Assembly (NCBI GenBank): GCA_030429345.1
Contig: JAUIFJ010000037.1
Span: forward strand, 1-28,656
Source of the DNA: a bacterium
Lineage (GTDB): Bacteria > CAIWAD01
Direction of reading: 5' to 3'
DNA length: 28,656 bases
Every line of letters begins with the position of its first letter. Position 1 is the first letter of the stretch. The translations under genes were made by a program, and so were the position numbers. The notes under the pieces are model-generated. The model was given only the letters and a program-made list of their open reading frames with translations, was not told the origin of the DNA and did not search any database. Positions 14,739 to 21,337 of this stretch are shown here, piece by piece.

Positions 14739-15164
14739 CTATCGGGCGGACTTGAACCCGGCCTTCTTGTGGCTGCCGTCGCAGAAGGGCCGGTTGGAAC
14801 TCGCCCCGCAGCGGCAGAGCGCGGTCTTCGCGCCGCAGGGGATCGCCGTCCCCTCTTCGTCGACCAGCTCGATCGGTCCGGTCACCAGCAGGGGCCCGTC
14901 GGAGCCCAGCTGCACGCGAACCCTCGCGGCTGGAGACTCGCCCTGCTCCTCCTGCCCGCGCAGGAACTGCAGGGCTCCCGAGGGACAGCGGGAAACGACC
15001 TGAGCGATCTCCTCCGGCGGGGCGGCCGCGGGATCAATCCACTTGCGGCGGCTGACATCGAAGACCGCGGGCAGCGATTTCACGCAGACGGCGGCGTGTG
15101 TGCAGATCTTCGGATCATAGGTGACCGTCGTGTCTCCGGCCTGGTAGGTCTGCCTGGCTTTCAT
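14739..15164 (-). CDS. Fusion of a YjdI-type [4Fe-4S] mono-cluster domain and a CDGSH iron-sulfur domain
   Basis: The 141-residue protein is expected to carry two Fe-S clusters. The N-terminal part (1-70) resembles the YjdI/Fer4_19 family, with C21, C27 and C60 (CTHAAVC...CPSGAL). The C-terminal part (about 85-141) ends in the CDGSH motif: C117-x-C119, then C128-D-G-S-H132, the 3Cys-1His ligands of a [2Fe-2S] cluster. ATG 15164 is preceded by GAGG at good distance; upstream in-frame ATGs, including 15296 directly after the hemW stop, lack a site. It is probably a cytoplasmic electron carrier or redox sensor. It sits next to hemW and the Rnf-like operon, a run of Fe-S proteins. Confidence 0.9.
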   Translation of the reverse strand: MKARQTYQAGDTTVTYDPKICTHAAVCVKSLPAVFDVSRRKWIDPAAAPPEEIAQVVSRCPSGALQFLRGQEEQGESPAARVRVQLGSDGPLLVTGPIELVDEEGTAIPCGAKTALCRCGASSNRPFCDGSHKKAGFKSAR

Positions 15165-15296
15165 TCTTCCCTCGTTGTTGTGTTCCATTGCGGGACAAGT
15201 CGAATTCGAAGGCGCCTCTTCCGACCCGACAGCTGGCCGGGCAGCAATCGGCAGGACCGGGGTCTCCAGGATGAAGATGCGGTGGGGCCGGGACAT

Positions 15297-16472
15297 TCAG
15301 TCCCGGGCGAGCTTCAGTACCCATTCATCCAGCAGCACCCGCTGCCCTTCGAAGAGGTAGAGCCGCCCCTCCTCCACCTGGAAGGCCTCGGGCCATTCCT
15401 TCGCCGCATCCAGGACCCCTTCGGCCTCTGCCTTCCCGAAGCGCGAGGCAAAGACCTGCAGGTCCACACCTCCCCTCCAGCGCAATCCAAGGTAAAGCGC
15501 TTCGAGAAGCGCCTGATCGCGATCCAGGGGCTCTTCCTCGCAAGGCGGCGCGGCGTGATCCTTGACGGCCTGCTCGAAGAGGTGCCAGCTGGCCCGGGTC
15601 TTCCTGCGCAGGCCCCAGGGCGCGTTCCGCCCGGCCCGGGCGGCGCGCTCCGCTCCCAGCCAGGCTACCGCCGAGGGACCGACCGCCAAACAGTCGCGCC
15701 CTTCCCAGTAGGCGCGGTTGTGGCGGCTTTCCAGCCCCGGACGCGCAAAACTGGAGATCTCGTAGTGCTCGTAGCCCGCCCGCCCCAGGCGCCGGCGCAC
15801 ATGCTCGTAGCGCTCGGCGGCCCGGGAAGCCTCCAGCGCCTGGAAGCGCCCCTGGCGCTCCTGCACGGCGAGCCGCGTGCCGGCCTCGATGCCCAGGCCG
15901 TAGACGCTCAGGTGCTCCGGCTCCAGCTCAAGAGCGCCGTCCAGCTCGTGATCCAGCTCGGCCGTCGTTTCCTCCGGCAACTGGCAGATCAGGTCCAGGC
16001 TGATGTTCTTCAGCCCGCTGGCGCGCAGGTTGCGCATGGCCGCGCGCAGTCCGGCGGCGTCATGCTCCCGCCCCAGGAAATGCAGCCGCTTGCGGTCGAA
16101 GGCCTGGCCGCCCAGGCTGACCCGCAGGATCCCGGCCTCGGCAAGAGTATCACAATACTCCGGCGTCAGGTGCTCGGGATTCGCCTCCAGGCTCACTTCC
16201 GCGCCAGGCAGCAGGCGATCCGCCAGCAGCCCTTTCAGCGCCAGCAGGAAATCGCGGTCCATCAGGCTGGGCGTGCCGCCTCCCAGGTAGAGCGTGCCGG
16301 CGCTCCCCGTCCAGGCCGGCTGGCCCAGTGCGCGCTCCAGGGCCTGCAGCAGCGCTTTGCCGCCCTCGCGCAGCACCTGGGGATCCCGTGTGACCTTGGC
16401 GTAGAAATCGCAGTAGCTGCAGCGCCGGGCGCACCAGGGCACGTGCAGGTAGACGCCGAAGGGCTCCTTCAC
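15297..16472 (-). CDS. hemW: HemW-type radical SAM heme chaperone
   Basis: The 391-residue radical SAM protein starts at GTG 16472, overlapping the rnfB stop (GTGA). The cluster motif CARRCSYCDF (C14, C18, C21) lacks the fourth cysteine of HemN, and the HNRAYW motif matches the HNxxYW signature of HemW heme chaperones. LYLGGGTPSLM is the SAM-binding glycine motif. HemW is thought to transfer heme to respiratory enzymes and is not a true coproporphyrinogen oxidase. A longer in-frame open frame upstream is a shadow of rnfB. Coupling to the Rnf-like operon suggests coordinated supply, but this is inference. Confidence 0.92.
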   Translation of the reverse strand: MKEPFGVYLHVPWCARRCSYCDFYAKVTRDPQVLREGGKALLQALERALGQPAWTGSAGTLYLGGGTPSLMDRDFLLALKGLLADRLLPGAEVSLEANPEHLTPEYCDTLAEAGILRVSLGGQAFDRKRLHFLGREHDAAGLRAAMRNLRASGLKNISLDLICQLPEETTAELDHELDGALELEPEHLSVYGLGIEAGTRLAVQERQGRFQALEASRAAERYEHVRRRLGRAGYEHYEISSFARPGLESRHNRAYWEGRDCLAVGPSAVAWLGAERAARAGRNAPWGLRRKTRASWHLFEQAVKDHAAPPCEEEPLDRDQALLEALYLGLRWRGGVDLQVFASRFGKAEAEGVLDAAKEWPEAFQVEEGRLYLFEGQRVLLDEWVLKLARD

Positions 16473-17383
16473 CCCTCGTCCCGGAAACCGTAGCCAATGG
16501 CGCCCACCACGCGAATGGCGGCTTCCCCGCAGAAGGGTACGCAGAGCCCGCAGCCCACGCAGCGCTCGGGATCGATGCGCGCACGCAGGCCGAGCCCCGC
16601 CGCTCCGCCATCCTGCGTGATACAGTGTTCCACCGGGCAGGAGGACAGGCAGTCCCCGCAGCCGGTGCAGCGCTCGTTGACGGTGAACCAGGGGCGGTGC
16701 GGAATGCGGTCGGCAAAAGACTCCGTCGGACAAAGGCCGATCAGCGGAGCCAGGTTGCGGCTGCGGCTCAGGTCGATCACGCGGCGTCCGTCCCGGGCCT
16801 GGACCGCATGCTCCGTGAAGCGGTTGTCCAGGCAGCGCCCGCTTTCGCGGCAGCCCAGGGAACACAGATCCTGCCTTTTCAGCAGAGGATCCGCGCTGGC
16901 GCAGCGCACATGGACCTGGGCGTCCGAGGGCAGCAGGTGCAGCACGCCCCGCGGGCAACTTGTCACACACTCCCCGCAGCCCGTGCAGCGCTCGGCGTCG
17001 ATCCGCGGCAGGCCCTGCTCCATGCGGATCGCTCCTTCGGGGCAGATCTCGGCGCAGTCGCCCTCGCCCAGGCAGGCCCAGGCGCAATCCCGTTCGCCTC
17101 CGTACTGCAGCTGCAGGTCCCGGCAGCTGCCGCGCCTGGGGGAGACGAAGCCGAGGCGGTTCTCACCGGGTGAGGAGGCGCAGCCGGCGACGGCGACGGC
17201 GCTGCTGCCGTAGCCCTCCCAGCCGGGTTCGGCAACGCTGGTTGTCACACGGCTGCGGAACTGCAGTCCGGCGGGAAGCGGCGTCGCCGGCCCGCGGTTC
17301 TTCGGGACGCTCGCCGGGTTGCGGCGCCGATCCAGCCAGAAAAGCAGTCCCAGGAGAACCAATGGTAGAAGTACATGAATCAC
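16469..17383 (-). CDS. rnfB: RnfB-like polyferredoxin subunit, N-terminal cluster motif missing
   Basis: The 304-residue protein has one N-terminal membrane helix (about 2-17) followed by Fe-S domains. The start is GTG 17383, overlapping the rnfA stop (GTGA). C100-x3-C104-x5-C110-x3-C114P, then C133/136/139/143P, and the flanking text (GLPRIDAERCTGCGECVTSCPRG) match the RnfB core. Two more CxxCxxCxxxC sites lie at 239-249 and 275-285. The CGxCGYxGC motif of ordinary RnfB is replaced by EPGWEGYGSSA (about 52-61), with no cysteines. The next cluster (C174, C178, C184) has lost its second and last ligands. Ordinary RnfB accepts electrons from or donates them to ferredoxin. Confidence 0.85.
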   Translation of the reverse strand: MIHVLLPLVLLGLLFWLDRRRNPASVPKNRGPATPLPAGLQFRSRVTTSVAEPGWEGYGSSAVAVAGCASSPGENRLGFVSPRRGSCRDLQLQYGGERDCAWACLGEGDCAEICPEGAIRMEQGLPRIDAERCTGCGECVTSCPRGVLHLLPSDAQVHVRCASADPLLKRQDLCSLGCRESGRCLDNRFTEHAVQARDGRRVIDLSRSRNLAPLIGLCPTESFADRIPHRPWFTVNERCTGCGDCLSSCPVEHCITQDGGAAGLGLRARIDPERCVGCGLCVPFCGEAAIRVVGAIGYGFRDEG

Positions 17384-17934
17384 ACCCGGCCCTCCAGCAG
17401 CAGGCGGAAGCAGTCCCAGAAGAAAAGCAGGAAGGCCACGAGCGCCAGGCGGAAGGGCAGGCCCTCCACGGAGGCCGGACTGCGGTTGAGCCGGAACTTT
17501 TCCTGCGCTCCGCTGAGCACAAAAAGCAGCACCAGGGCCAGTGAAAGCCAGAACAGGGGCGCGAGGGCCGCCAGGACGGCCTTCGGCAGCGGCAAGGCCA
17601 GGGGCGCCAGTGGAAAGAGCAGCGGCAGCCAGACCAGCCCCGGCAGGATCATGTAGAGCTCGAGCACCTCGCGATCCCGTTCTCCAGTGGCCAGCCGCAG
17701 CAGGCGAATGGCGAAGAGTCCGAGCAGCAGAACGCCCACCTGCGGCAGGGCCTGTTCCATGGGCCCCATGCGCCAGGCCCAAAGCGCCGCCGGGGCCAGG
17801 GCCAGGCCGCTCAGGGGCAGCAGCCACCAGGTCCGGCCGAAGGCATTGAAGCGCAGCTGGCGCACCAGCACCACGGCCAGGAGAGGACCCATGACCAACA
17901 GGAGCAGCGGATGCACGTTGAAGGGCGCGATCAT
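17380..17934 (-). CDS. rnfA: RnfA-like integral membrane subunit, divergent and cysteine-poor
   Basis: The 184-residue protein is almost entirely hydrophobic (about 5-6 membrane segments). I assign it to RnfA/NqrE by position in the operon, by length (usual about 190) and by the C-terminal pattern LALVLLFVLSGAQEKF...EGLPFRLALVAF, which matches RnfA's LALVLFAGIREKLE...GFPIALITAGL. The LGLCPFLG and TTNC motifs that hold the membrane [2Fe-2S] cluster in RnfA are absent; the only cysteine is C165 near the end. ATG 17934 overlaps the rnfE stop (ATGA). Homology is by-eye and needs a profile search. Confidence 0.62.
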   Translation of the reverse strand: MIAPFNVHPLLLLVMGPLLAVVLVRQLRFNAFGRTWWLLPLSGLALAPAALWAWRMGPMEQALPQVGVLLLGLFAIRLLRLATGERDREVLELYMILPGLVWLPLLFPLAPLALPLPKAVLAALAPLFWLSLALVLLFVLSGAQEKFRLNRSPASVEGLPFRLALVAFLLFFWDCFRLLLEGRV

Positions 17935-18533
17935 GCTCTCCTCCTGCGCAATCGGCGCAGCAGCAGCTGGAAAGCGGACAAGAGCAACAGCAACCCCAGC
18001 AGCCGCGGCAGGCCCGGAATGCCCGTGGCTGGCAGCAAGGATTCGCCGAAACCCAGCAATGCCAGGAAAAGCAGCGGCAGGGGCAGGGCCAGGCTTGCGC
18101 GCACGGACCAGGTGCGGGCTTCCTCCGGCCCCGGCCGGTGAATGCTCTTCAGGTAGAGCAGGGCGCTGCCGTGCAGACAAAGCACCAGGGAGAGGCCGGC
18201 CAGGGGCAGGCTCTCGCGCAGCTCCGTGACCTGCAGCAGCCATTGCACGACTCCCAGCAGCAGGGGTCCCAGCGTCACCAGCAGCAGCACCCGCCGGCTG
18301 TCGCCCGCCGGACCTTCTCCCAGGGGCAGCACCGTCAGGGCCAGCAGGGAGAGCGGCAGCAGCAGGATCAGCACGATCCAGTGCAGGAGATCCGGCGCCA
18401 GGCAGAGGGCCGGTCCCAGGCAGCAGGCGTAGCTGGCCGCCTCGATGGGATTCAGCCGGTGTTCCTGAAAAGGGCGTTCACGCGTCAGCGGATTGTGGCC
18501 CGGAACCCAGCGGAAGGAAGGGGCGGGCTTCAT
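17931..18533 (-). CDS. rnfE: RnfE-like integral membrane subunit, divergent
   Basis: The 200-residue membrane protein is assigned to RnfE/NqrD by its place between rnfD and rnfA, by length, and by partial motifs. LNPIEAASYACCLGPALCLA (28-47) stands where RnfE has NPALVQLLGLCPLLAV. ELRESLPLAGLSLVLCLHGS (104-123) stands where RnfE has LYQSLGIFIPLIVTNC. Cysteines C37, C38, C44 and C119 could partly replace the usual cluster ligands. The C-terminus is arginine-rich. ATG 18533 overlaps the rnfD stop (ATGA), leaving no space for rnfG, which normally lies between D and E. Confidence 0.65.
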   Translation of the reverse strand: MKPAPSFRWVPGHNPLTRERPFQEHRLNPIEAASYACCLGPALCLAPDLLHWIVLILLLPLSLLALTVLPLGEGPAGDSRRVLLLVTLGPLLLGVVQWLLQVTELRESLPLAGLSLVLCLHGSALLYLKSIHRPGPEEARTWSVRASLALPLPLLFLALLGFGESLLPATGIPGLPRLLGLLLLLSAFQLLLRRLRRRRA

Positions 18534-19579
18534 CGCGGTCCCCTGGGCAAGGTCCAGTAGTCGATCCAGGGAACCAGCGCCCCGGCAAGCGGCAGGGCCA
18601 GCAGCAGGCCCGGATCCGGCAGTCCCAGCAGCAGCGGCGCGGACATGCAGAGTCCCAGCAGCAGGCCGTAAAGGGCGCGGCCCCGCGGAGTCATCGGCGT
18701 GAAGACCGGATTGGAACTGTAGAAGACCAGCAGAAGACACAGCGGGGTCGAGACCAGCGCTCGCAGGAAGGGCGGCGATTCGACCAGGGAGGCCGCGTCC
18801 AGCAGGCTGAGCACTCCGCCGCAGACCAGCAGGGCTATGAAGGGCGCTTTCCAGTCCAGCACTCGGCGAGCGAAGAGCAGCACCGCGCCCGGCACCACCA
18901 GCAGCAGGCTGAGCTGCCCCAGGGCGGCAGCATCCGGCGCCCAGAGAAACTCCCGCCAGCCGGGAAGGCGCAGGGTCTCCTGCAGGCCGGCAATCCGGTC
19001 CAGGCCCTGAATCTGCCCGGCCTGATCGATCGCGATCCGCTCCAGTTCGCGCAGGGCGCGCCAGGCCTCGTCCCAGACGGATACCGCGCGGGGCGCGTCG
19101 GCGATCGGCCAGCTCAGCCAGCCTTGGGGCAGCCACCAGAGCGCCTGCAGACCTGCCTCGCTGCCCCTGGAAGAGGGGGCCAGCAGGAAGAGCAGCAGCC
19201 TCCCGACGATGGCGGGATGAAAGGGGGTTCTTCCCATGCCGCCGAAGAACTGCTCACCGACCAGCGCTGCCAGCAGGGCGCAACCGAAAAAGGCGAGGGG
19301 ATCCACTCCCACCGGACAAAGGAGCGCCAGCAGCAGGCCGTTGAGCAGGGAGTGTCCGTCGCCGAAGCGCTGCCGGTTGCCCAGGGCCGCCTTGACCAGG
19401 GCCTCGACTCCAATGAAGGCCAGGACCGACAGCGCCTGAAGCCTGAGGGCGGGCAACCCCCAGGCGATCCACGAGACCAGCACCAGCGGCGAAAGGGCCA
19501 GCAGGGACTGCAGATGCATGCTGCGCAGGCCGGAACCCTGGCGCAGCAGGGGCATGGGAGGCAGGACGCTAGCTTTCAT
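18530..19579 (-). CDS. rnfD: RnfD-like membrane subunit without the flavinylation motif
   Basis: The 349-residue membrane protein belongs to the RnfD/NqrB family. GDGHSLLNGLLLALLCPVG (73-91), GEQFFGGMGRTPFHPAIVGR (108-127, cf. NPFNPALVGR) and SSNPVFTPMTPRGR (288-301, cf. DPVTSPTTPRGR) are family landmarks. The SGAT sequence whose threonine carries covalent FMN is not found; the corresponding region reads ADAPRAVSVWDEAW (160-173). The GSxGETSxLA element is also changed, to APDAAALGQLSLLL. ATG 19579 lies inside the end of rnfC (11-nt overlap), with GGGAGG about 6 nt upstream. Confidence 0.88.
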   Translation of the reverse strand: MKASVLPPMPLLRQGSGLRSMHLQSLLALSPLVLVSWIAWGLPALRLQALSVLAFIGVEALVKAALGNRQRFGDGHSLLNGLLLALLCPVGVDPLAFFGCALLAALVGEQFFGGMGRTPFHPAIVGRLLLFLLAPSSRGSEAGLQALWWLPQGWLSWPIADAPRAVSVWDEAWRALRELERIAIDQAGQIQGLDRIAGLQETLRLPGWREFLWAPDAAALGQLSLLLVVPGAVLLFARRVLDWKAPFIALLVCGGVLSLLDAASLVESPPFLRALVSTPLCLLLVFYSSNPVFTPMTPRGRALYGLLLGLCMSAPLLLGLPDPGLLLALPLAGALVPWIDYWTLPRGPR

Positions 19580-20834
19580 CGCGCGCCTCCCTCAGCAGCC
19601 AGCGGCCCTTGCGCAGGCTGTGCCCCAGGTGGATGCGGCTGGGACAGACCCAGCTGCAGATGCCGCAGTGCAGGCAATGGTTGAGCCCCATGCGACGGGC
19701 CTCCTCCAGGCGCTGTTCCTCGATCAGGTGGGCCAGGCGCGGCGGGGCCAGGTTCTGGGGGCAGGCGTCCAGGCAAAGACCGCAGGTGATGCAGGCGTCC
19801 TCGATGCTGTCGGCAATCTGTCCCGGATCCGGCGCGAAGACCGTGCGCAGGGGCGGCAGCAGGGGCATCTCGCCTCCGGGCGCCCGGCTGCCGGTCAACA
19901 GGCTTCCCAGCAGGAGTTCCCCTTCCGTGCCGTCCAGCAACGCCTGAAGAGGCAGTCCCGACGGCACTTCCAGCACTTCGGCCTCCGCCTCTCCGCGAGC
20001 CCAGCTGATGAGGAAACGGTCCGCCGGGCCGACCTGCAGACGGCGCTGCAGCAGGGCCAGACGTTCCATGCCCAGGACCAGCAGCCCCTGGGAAGGCAGC
20101 GGCCTCAAGGGGTCCGGCTCGGCAAGGGCGGCTTCGAGCCGCGCCAGGCGGCGGGCCAGCAGCAAGGGATGCGCGCTGGGATAGTCAGGGGAAAGCTTCA
20201 GCGGACGCAGTTCCGCAAGAGGCGCCAGGCTTGCCTTCAGGGCCAGGGCGTCTTCTTCCTGGTGATCATCGAAGGCGATCCAGACCGATGCCGGCCGGCA
20301 GCGCTCCAGCAGCAGCTGCAGGGCCGGCGCCAGCCGCGGATGCTCGAGCTCGTCGCGGAGAGCCGCCCGGCGGCTGCGCTGGCCGAACTCGGTCTCCACG
20401 CAATTGATCAGCAGGATGCCGCCCTGGCCAAGGAGTTCCAGTTCGTAGTCCAGCGGGAGGCCTTCGCTGCTTTCCATGCCCTGGGCAGAGAGCGCCGTCT
20501 GCGGGTCCAGGGGCGCCTCGTCCGGCGCGCTGACCTGGAGCAGGACGCAGGGAACGCGGCAGCCGTCGGCCAGTGCCCGGTTCTCGACGGCGAGCACGCG
20601 TCCGGAAGCCGGTGCCAGGCGGGGACGCGAAAGCAGGCCGCAGGCCTCGCTCAAGGGCTGGCCGGAACGCACCTCGTCGCCCGCCTGGACCAGCGCTCGG
20701 GCCTGGTCGTAGCGATAGCTGCGCAGGGGAAGGATCAGGTTGTGCCCGCCCCGTTCAAGTTGTCGCAGGGGAGGTGCATCGCGAAGACACCATCCGGCAG
20801 GCCGAATGCTTCTTCGCAGGCGCATGCGTTGCAT
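19569..20834 (-). CDS. rnfC: RnfC-like subunit with two [4Fe-4S] sites but no NADH/flavin loop
   Basis: The 421-residue peripheral subunit has an N-terminal barrel-sandwich part (VQAGDEVRSGQPLSE, cf. VSVGDKVLRGQPL; LAPASGRVLAV, cf. APTSGTV) and two C-terminal clusters, CITCGLCLDACPQNLAP (C348-C358) and CLHCGICSWVCPSRIHL (C387-C397). In canonical RnfC a GLGGAGFPTG loop precedes the LIINxAECEP block. Here ELELLGQGG (131-139) runs straight into ILLINCVETEFG, so the FPT loop is deleted and the ECEP block altered. NADH oxidation by this subunit is therefore doubtful. It starts 35 nt after nrdR and heads the overlapping operon. Confidence 0.86.
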   Translation of the reverse strand: MQRMRLRRSIRPAGWCLRDAPPLRQLERGGHNLILPLRSYRYDQARALVQAGDEVRSGQPLSEACGLLSRPRLAPASGRVLAVENRALADGCRVPCVLLQVSAPDEAPLDPQTALSAQGMESSEGLPLDYELELLGQGGILLINCVETEFGQRSRRAALRDELEHPRLAPALQLLLERCRPASVWIAFDDHQEEDALALKASLAPLAELRPLKLSPDYPSAHPLLLARRLARLEAALAEPDPLRPLPSQGLLVLGMERLALLQRRLQVGPADRFLISWARGEAEAEVLEVPSGLPLQALLDGTEGELLLGSLLTGSRAPGGEMPLLPPLRTVFAPDPGQIADSIEDACITCGLCLDACPQNLAPPRLAHLIEEQRLEEARRMGLNHCLHCGICSWVCPSRIHLGHSLRKGRWLLREARDES

Positions 20835-20869: not shown

Positions 20870-21337
20870 CTAGTCTTCCCGGCTCCGGCGCAGTTTCTCG
20901 AGTTCAGTCAGGAATCCTTCGGCGTCGCTGAATCGCCGGTATACGGAAGCGAATCGAATGTAGGCCACCTGGTCGAAATGCAACAGCGCCTCGAGCACGA
21001 TCTCGCCGAGTCGGGCGCTGGGGATCTCCCCGCTGGCCGCTGCCGGACCCTGGCAGCCGCGCTCGATGTGATCCAGCAGCTCCTCGACCTGCTCCGGCTG
21101 CTTGCCCCGCTTGTGCAGGGCCTGCTCCAGGCCCCGGCGAAGCTTGGCGCGGCTGAAGAGCTCACGCTCCCCGTTCGCCTTCAGCACGGTCAACTGGGCG
21201 CCCTCCACGTATTCCCAGGTCGTGAACCGCGTGTGACAGGAAGTGCATTCCCGGCGGCGGCGCGTCTGCTTGCCTTCCGCCGCGGGACGGCTGTCGATCA
21301 CCGTGTCCTTCAGGCTGCCGCAGGAGGGGCACTTCAT
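20870..21337 (-). CDS. nrdR: Transcriptional regulator NrdR
   Basis: The 155-residue repressor of ribonucleotide reductase genes has an N-terminal zinc ribbon (C3-x2-C6, C31-x2-C34) and an ATP-cone domain (about 46-136) that senses ATP/dATP. Length and MKCPSCGS start are standard. It lies 15 nt after glyA, a common neighbour, and 35 nt before rnfC, so it probably shares their transcript. No NrdR box was recognised in the window. Confidence 0.96.
   Translation of the reverse strand: MKCPSCGSLKDTVIDSRPAAEGKQTRRRRECTSCHTRFTTWEYVEGAQLTVLKANGERELFSRAKLRRGLEQALHKRGKQPEQVEELLDHIERGCQGPAAASGEIPSARLGEIVLEALLHFDQVAYIRFASVYRRFSDAEGFLTELEKLRRSRED

Follow-up and report, generated by a model that had tools for sequence, protein, structure and literature searches.

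The Rnf complex is a central ion pump in anaerobes, linked to ferredoxin, and its mechanism is believed to need a path of [2Fe-2S] clusters and flavins in the membrane. In Acetobacterium woodii, electrons pass from ferredoxin to RnfB and B8/FdI, then to the [2Fe-2S] cluster of RnfA/E, the flavin mononucleotide (FMN) groups of RnfG and RnfD, riboflavin, RnfC and finally NAD+ (PMC11889175). Mutants in the ligands of B8, AE1, FMN-G or riboflavin lose both ferredoxin:NAD+ activity and autotrophic growth, and the nearest clusters of RnfB and RnfC are more than 30 Å apart, a gap across which direct transfer was judged unlikely (PMC11889175). The cofactors of canonical RnfC are arranged in line with RnfD, and conformational changes of RnfA/E gate ions (PMC11889175). 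Na+-NQR, too, descends from an rnf operon, with NqrA representing an RnfC whose cofactor sites are gone (PMC4014512; PMC12174285). Here we analyze a stripped rnf operon in a 28,656-nucleotide stretch of bacterial DNA (contig JAUIFJ010000037.1 of assembly GCA_030429345.1; hereafter, the window). It has no rnfG, its products have lost the ligands of the known transmembrane electron path, and Fe-S clusters of RnfB and RnfC are retained. Judged from these sequences, the stripped complex probably does a job other than ion pumping with NAD+. No earlier description of Rnf without RnfG was found in the open-access literature.

Operon layout and subunit identity

Five intact rnf homologues occupy positions 16469-20834 of the window on the minus strand, in the order C-D-E-A-B. 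Adjacent genes overlap, by 11 nt for C/D and by 4 nt for D/E, E/A and A/B, and there is no rnfG between D and E. This is the arrangement described in the original prediction, which had been made from the window's sequence alone. The genes, in the order of transcription, are:

19569..20834, minus strand: RnfC homologue, 421 amino acids (RnfC_N, 40 bits; TIGR01945, 108 bits)
18530..19579, minus strand: RnfD homologue, 349 amino acids (PF03116, 148 bits)
17931..18533, minus strand: six-helix membrane protein in the RnfE position, 200 amino acids (fold matches of an AlphaFold2 model; no Pfam family above cut-off)
17380..17934, minus strand: six-helix membrane protein in the RnfA position, 184 amino acids (profile match to RnfA in the C-terminal quarter; no Pfam family)
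16469..17383, minus strand: RnfB homologue, 304 amino acids, GTG start, N-terminal transmembrane helix (NF005503, 129 bits)

Homologues of RnfC, RnfD and RnfB are encoded together, as expected of an Rnf system. An NQR assignment does not fit, as RnfB is present and the operon has no FMN_bind gene. The NCBIfam scores of C, D and B fall far under the family cut-offs, which is indicative of strong divergence. In RnfB, the ferredoxin domains were recognized by Pfam and NCBIfam models and the N-terminal FeS domain (PF04060) was not.

For the proteins in the RnfE and RnfA positions, neither Pfam nor NCBIfam gave a family above cut-off. Their names in the original prediction rested on position and landmarks. 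The RnfE-position protein was modeled with AlphaFold2 from four family sequences without templates (mean predicted local distance difference test score, pLDDT, 63). When this model was compared with the PDB, the 12 best entries were all RnfA, NqrD or NqrE (Z 9.0-11.8 over 159-166 residues), and the first unrelated protein followed at Z 8.5. The fold-search tool carries a caveat about helical bundles that applies to this match, though the top 12 entries are one family. Comparison with the canonical RnfE profile gave a weak score of 18.0, against a maximum of 16.6 in 60 shuffles. By its predicted fold, the assignment of this protein as an RnfE homologue is well supported. The RnfA-position protein has six predicted helices, and its match to the canonical RnfA profile spans 51 columns (E = 5e-4) and scores 31.7, where 60 shuffles reached at most 17.8; it is likely to be an RnfA homologue. 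A fold search with its model (pLDDT 50, too poor to count) listed no Rnf protein. The earlier names are supported by Rnf profiles for C, D and B, by fold for E and by a weak profile match for A.

Cofactor sites lost and retained

Five genomes represent the phylum, and four of them belong to the window's family: G000, which is the genome of the window, G002, G003 and G004 (G-, L- and C-numbers denote genomes, loci and contigs, respectively). All genomes used here and below are draft assemblies. Contig ends cut the operon in G002 and G004; RnfA was available from three genomes and full-length RnfB from two. Ligand identities were taken from the structures of the A. woodii and Clostridium tetanomorphum complexes (PMC11889175, PMC9588780), and sites were scored after each subunit had been aligned with 15-19 canonical sequences.

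C25 and C113 of RnfA, and C25/26 and C108/109 of RnfE, are replaced in every family sequence that covers them. Glycine and leucine occupy the two RnfE columns in the window protein, and all four ligands of the RnfA/E [2Fe-2S] cluster are thus absent from the window complex. The threonine of RnfD that carries covalent FMN (T153/156) is likewise replaced in every family sequence covering it. The corresponding motif was found in 30/30 control RnfD proteins with the final search pattern, two earlier patterns having been too narrow; this pattern misplaces one aligned sequence (c_G072), where the alignment shows the threonine. RnfB has lost the four cysteines of FdI, its N-terminal shuttle [4Fe-4S] cluster, in both full sequences (G000 and G003), and the partial RnfB of G004 also lacks the FdI segment. 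The alignments bear out the missing RnfD, RnfA and RnfB motifs noticed originally, and RnfE has lost both of its ligands as well. The riboflavin ligands of RnfD, N123 and D249, are intact in G002, G003 and G004, and are replaced by histidine and asparagine in the window genome only.

The [4Fe-4S] ferredoxin sites that had been reported as remaining in C and B were found in the alignments. All eight cysteines of the two C-terminal clusters of RnfC are retained in the four family genomes. Both full RnfB sequences keep clusters II, III, VI and VII and the four linker cysteines, so that the window protein comprises four 4-Cys clusters (two dicluster modules) and a 2+2-Cys linker cluster. Clusters IV and V are partly lost, as they are in the canonical operons of G005, G148 and G058. 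The long C terminus of RnfB was considered as a gain; this was dropped, because canonical C-D-G-E-A-B operons have the same C-terminal ferredoxin domain.

In the flavin/NADH site of RnfC, the window protein departs from the conserved residue at 7 of 12 positions, and its relatives from the other three genomes do so at 8-10. A vestige persists in the window (LLINCVETE, and the YP of KYPQG), so the site is largely missing, as had been claimed, but not wholly erased. The lost RnfC residues give good support to the suggestion that the complex has stopped using NADH. It may, as was also raised originally, couple by another route. Taken together, the losses follow the electron pathway: every step from FdI through to the FMN of RnfD is missing, as is most of the NAD+ site. 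This pattern fits the removal of one function and not random decay.

The window genome also has a canonical rnf set, on contig C65 (60.4-72.7 kb; L007 367-12666), in the order B, a large open reading frame, C, D, G, E, A, korA and korB. The last two we take, by their appearance, to be 2-oxoacid:ferredoxin oxidoreductase genes. The open reading frame between rnfB and rnfC encodes 1384 amino acids and has ferredoxin-like and oxidoreductase-like stretches. The only FMN_bind domain found in the window genome lies in this operon, which includes rnfG. Canonical rnf genes are also present in G002 and G003, and in G004 (90% complete assembly) searches turned up no canonical RnfD and no FMN_bind domain. 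A second, canonical operon had been named as something that might supply the missing parts. It is there, but it does not explain the losses, since the stripped RnfD itself lacks the FMN threonine, the C65 operon cannot put back the residues that D, E and A have lost, no canonical RnfD or RnfG was detected in G004, and the lineage described below lacks a canonical copy. By identity, the stripped C and D come nearest to the canonical proteins encoded within the family, and B to G005. Trees of B, C and D, with their long branches and biased composition, do not decide whether the operon arose from today's canonical copy or from an earlier one. A further RnfC relative on contig C87 (L008 5936-8004) is presumably PduS-like, judging from sequence features and family knowledge, and is followed by what we take to be a bacterial-microcompartment shell protein gene.

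Conservation and a parallel case

The search for the same five genes in related genomes was productive: the stripped operon is present in all four family genomes at the glyA-nrdR site, with the shared gene order glyA-nrdR-rnfC. It was not seen in the fifth genome of the phylum, which is 67% complete and belongs to another family. hemW adjoins rnfB in G000 and G003. The neighbors in the window are:

20870..21337, minus strand: nrdR, 35 nt upstream of rnfC (Pfam NrdR domains, synteny)
15297..16472, minus strand: hemW-like radical SAM gene, whose start overlaps the rnfB stop by 4 nt (Radical_SAM and HemN_C)
14739..15296, minus strand: small protein directly after hemW, with divergent 4Fe-4S mono-cluster and CDGSH domains (Fer4_19, zf-CDGSH)

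A full-length 16S rRNA gene lies at 179-1713 on the minus strand, and no tRNA genes were found in the window. In an unrelated family, nrdR lies directly upstream of a canonical rnfCDGEAB operon (G106; L073 8114-9968), a context that matches that of the stripped operon.

No stop codons interrupt the family operons, at 32%-62% amino acid identity between species. Between G000 and G003, RnfB is best kept (54%) and C, D, E and A are 32%-43% identical; canonical RnfC is 44% identical. Within genus g2, which holds the three closer relatives, third codon positions change most; comparisons of D and E with the window are near saturation at the codon positions. The third-position pattern and the intact frames argue for selection at the level of the protein, clearest for B and C and least for E and A.

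A survey of 290 genomes, 161 of which encode RnfD/NqrB-type proteins, yielded two outliers with a weak RnfD only (G133 and G270). These were assigned to Candidatus Edwardsbacteria on the basis of an RnfC 89% identical to that of the metagenome-assembled genome DeMMO3_1. The same holds for all 10 Edwardsbacteria genomes available: each has a weak RnfD and none a canonical one. Neither an FMN_bind domain nor RnfG was found in the two outliers, in which the genes are split between an rnfC-rnfD pair near recA and rnfE-rnfA-rnfB elsewhere. RnfE lacks both cysteines in 10/10 genomes, and RnfA lacks both in eight and one in two. The RnfA proteins with one cysteine left (G293 and G294, L168 and L169; ANCAVLG) appear to be intermediates of loss. 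The FMN motif is absent from RnfD in 9/9 sequences that cover it. The riboflavin aspartate of RnfD is retained in all sequences; the alignment at Asn123 is doubtful. RnfB and RnfC retain their Fe-S motifs. The E and A proteins of Edwardsbacteria are still recognized by PF02508, and this marks them as genuine RnfE and RnfA lacking ligands.

The Edwardsbacteria set thus resembles that of the window in having no canonical RnfD, an RnfD without the FMN threonine, no RnfE cysteines, and Fe-S clusters kept in B and C. It differs in the rnfCD/rnfEAB split, in RnfB with FdI retained, in the PF02508 matches of E and A, and in an RnfC whose FMN domain is still recognized (PF01512, 46 bits). In the B and D trees, the window's family and Edwardsbacteria form separate, well-supported groups that do not join. 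The C tree places both lineages side by side outside the canonical clade, a join flagged as long branches meeting. We regard the two stripped sets as independent. HemW was considered as an electron acceptor because of its 4-nt overlap and synteny, and was rejected: the loci analyzed around the Edwardsbacteria genes showed no hemW.

Partial losses were seen in other genomes. In G199, from another family, an RnfD without the FMN motif stands beside an RnfE with both cysteines (L139 5461-7445, L075 4125-5180), and RnfB is on another contig. In G264 and G127 (L071 6031-6672, L077 3922-4554), the second [2Fe-2S] cysteine of RnfE is lost (VVNC to VAFA), leaving three ligands in an otherwise canonical C-D-G-E-A-B operon.

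Possible function and relation to known systems

Our preferred, still tentative reading is that a membrane complex of Rnf descent has been repurposed as an Fe-S-only membrane relay, carrying ferredoxin electrons to some acceptor that is not NAD+. Every known step of electron transfer across the membrane would have been given up (FdI of RnfB, the [2Fe-2S] cluster of RnfA/E, and the FMN groups of RnfG and RnfD), and the NAD+ site of RnfC as well. D, E and A would then serve as a membrane scaffold for the Fe-S chains that RnfB and RnfC keep on the cytoplasmic side. Reduced ferredoxin, the putative donor, would pass electrons to the RnfB clusters and, by way of the two RnfC clusters or by direct docking, on to the acceptor. 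We infer that the five subunits assemble as one complex and that electrons would flow in this direction. Ferredoxin:NAD+ oxidoreduction with Na+/H+ transport is predicted to be lost by analogy with the A. woodii mutants (PMC11889175), and canonical redox-driven ion pumping would be lost with it. Several points weigh against such a relay. No acceptor was found, and the lineages have no gene neighbor in common (hemW/nrdR versus recA). Given the distance of more than 30 Å between RnfB and RnfC clusters in A. woodii (PMC11889175), a B-to-C relay needs an altered arrangement. Furthermore, RnfE and RnfA are only 37%-43% identical, and such fast evolution is also expected under relaxed constraint.

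That last observation fits a decaying remnant, in which an old rnf operon, redundant beside the canonical C65 operon, is under relaxed selection and en route to loss. The canonical rnfB-CDGEA set in the window genome, the canonical genes in G002 and G003, and the vestiges of the FMN site in RnfC point the same way. However, the family genomes keep their frames and Fe-S ligands, the losses single out the NAD and transmembrane sites, canonical RnfD and RnfG were not seen in G004, and the stripped form stands alone in 10/10 Edwardsbacteria species. We consider decay quite unlikely; the original proposal of a repurposed rather than decayed complex gains support from these observations and from the predominance of third-position changes. 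The canonical copy might instead be a partner, with the five proteins borrowing RnfG or other C65 subunits or regulating the canonical complex. The window genome does hold a complete canonical rnf, including RnfG, but RnfG cannot supply the RnfD threonine or the RnfA/E cysteines, and the searches run found no canonical partners in G004 or Edwardsbacteria, which makes such a hybrid very improbable.

Two further alternatives turn on the riboflavin site of RnfD. D, E and A could move or gate Na+ or H+ while B and C act as the switch through the state of their Fe-S clusters, and no electrons would cross the membrane. The RnfD aspartate (D248/249), which binds riboflavin and possibly Na+, is retained in G002, G003, G004 and all Edwardsbacteria sequences, and RnfA/E gate ions by conformational change in Rnf (PMC11889175). 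The window species has asparagine at this position, however, and reduction of AE1, the known trigger, has been lost with that cluster; we regard a redox-controlled conduit or sensor as unlikely. A ferredoxin:quinone-type reductase, with an NQR-like exit from the RnfB/RnfC clusters through RnfD riboflavin to a membrane quinone, would draw on the same aspartate and on Asn123, both kept in G002, G003 and G004, and on the alignment of RnfC cofactors with RnfD in the canonical complex (PMC11889175). Histidine and asparagine stand at these positions in the window species, only the aspartate can be relied on in Edwardsbacteria, where the Asn123 alignment is doubtful, and no quinone site was identified. 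We hold this reductase to be rather improbable.

Beyond the preferred Fe-S relay, we raise, with low confidence, a broader idea: that Rnf includes an Fe-S-only class, with at least two origins, in which oxidation of ferredoxin is linked to ion movement or to a new acceptor and no electrons cross the membrane. Stripped complexes are natural cofactor-deletion variants and allow a direct test of whether the D/E/A core supports ion movement or redox chemistry when the membrane cofactor path is missing. They also mean that annotation of rnf genes as energy conservation can mislead, particularly for Edwardsbacteria, in which no Rnf other than the stripped form was found.

Compared with the Rnf complexes (RnfCDGEAB) of A. 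woodii and C. tetanomorphum, the window operon encodes homologous C, D and B, and probably E and A, in the same order minus G. As in Rnf, its RnfB is a long form with C-terminal dicluster modules and its RnfC has two [4Fe-4S] clusters. Unlike Rnf, the window complex would be without RnfG, RnfD FMN, the A/E [2Fe-2S] cluster and RnfB FdI, and most of the NAD/FMN site of RnfC is gone. Na+-NQR sets a precedent for the loss of RnfC cofactors in an Rnf paralogue (PMC4014512), but it keeps the membrane path (FMN in NqrB and NqrC, Fe-S in NqrD/E), and NqrF replaces RnfB. In the window complex, the membrane path is gone, and the clusters of RnfB and RnfC stay.

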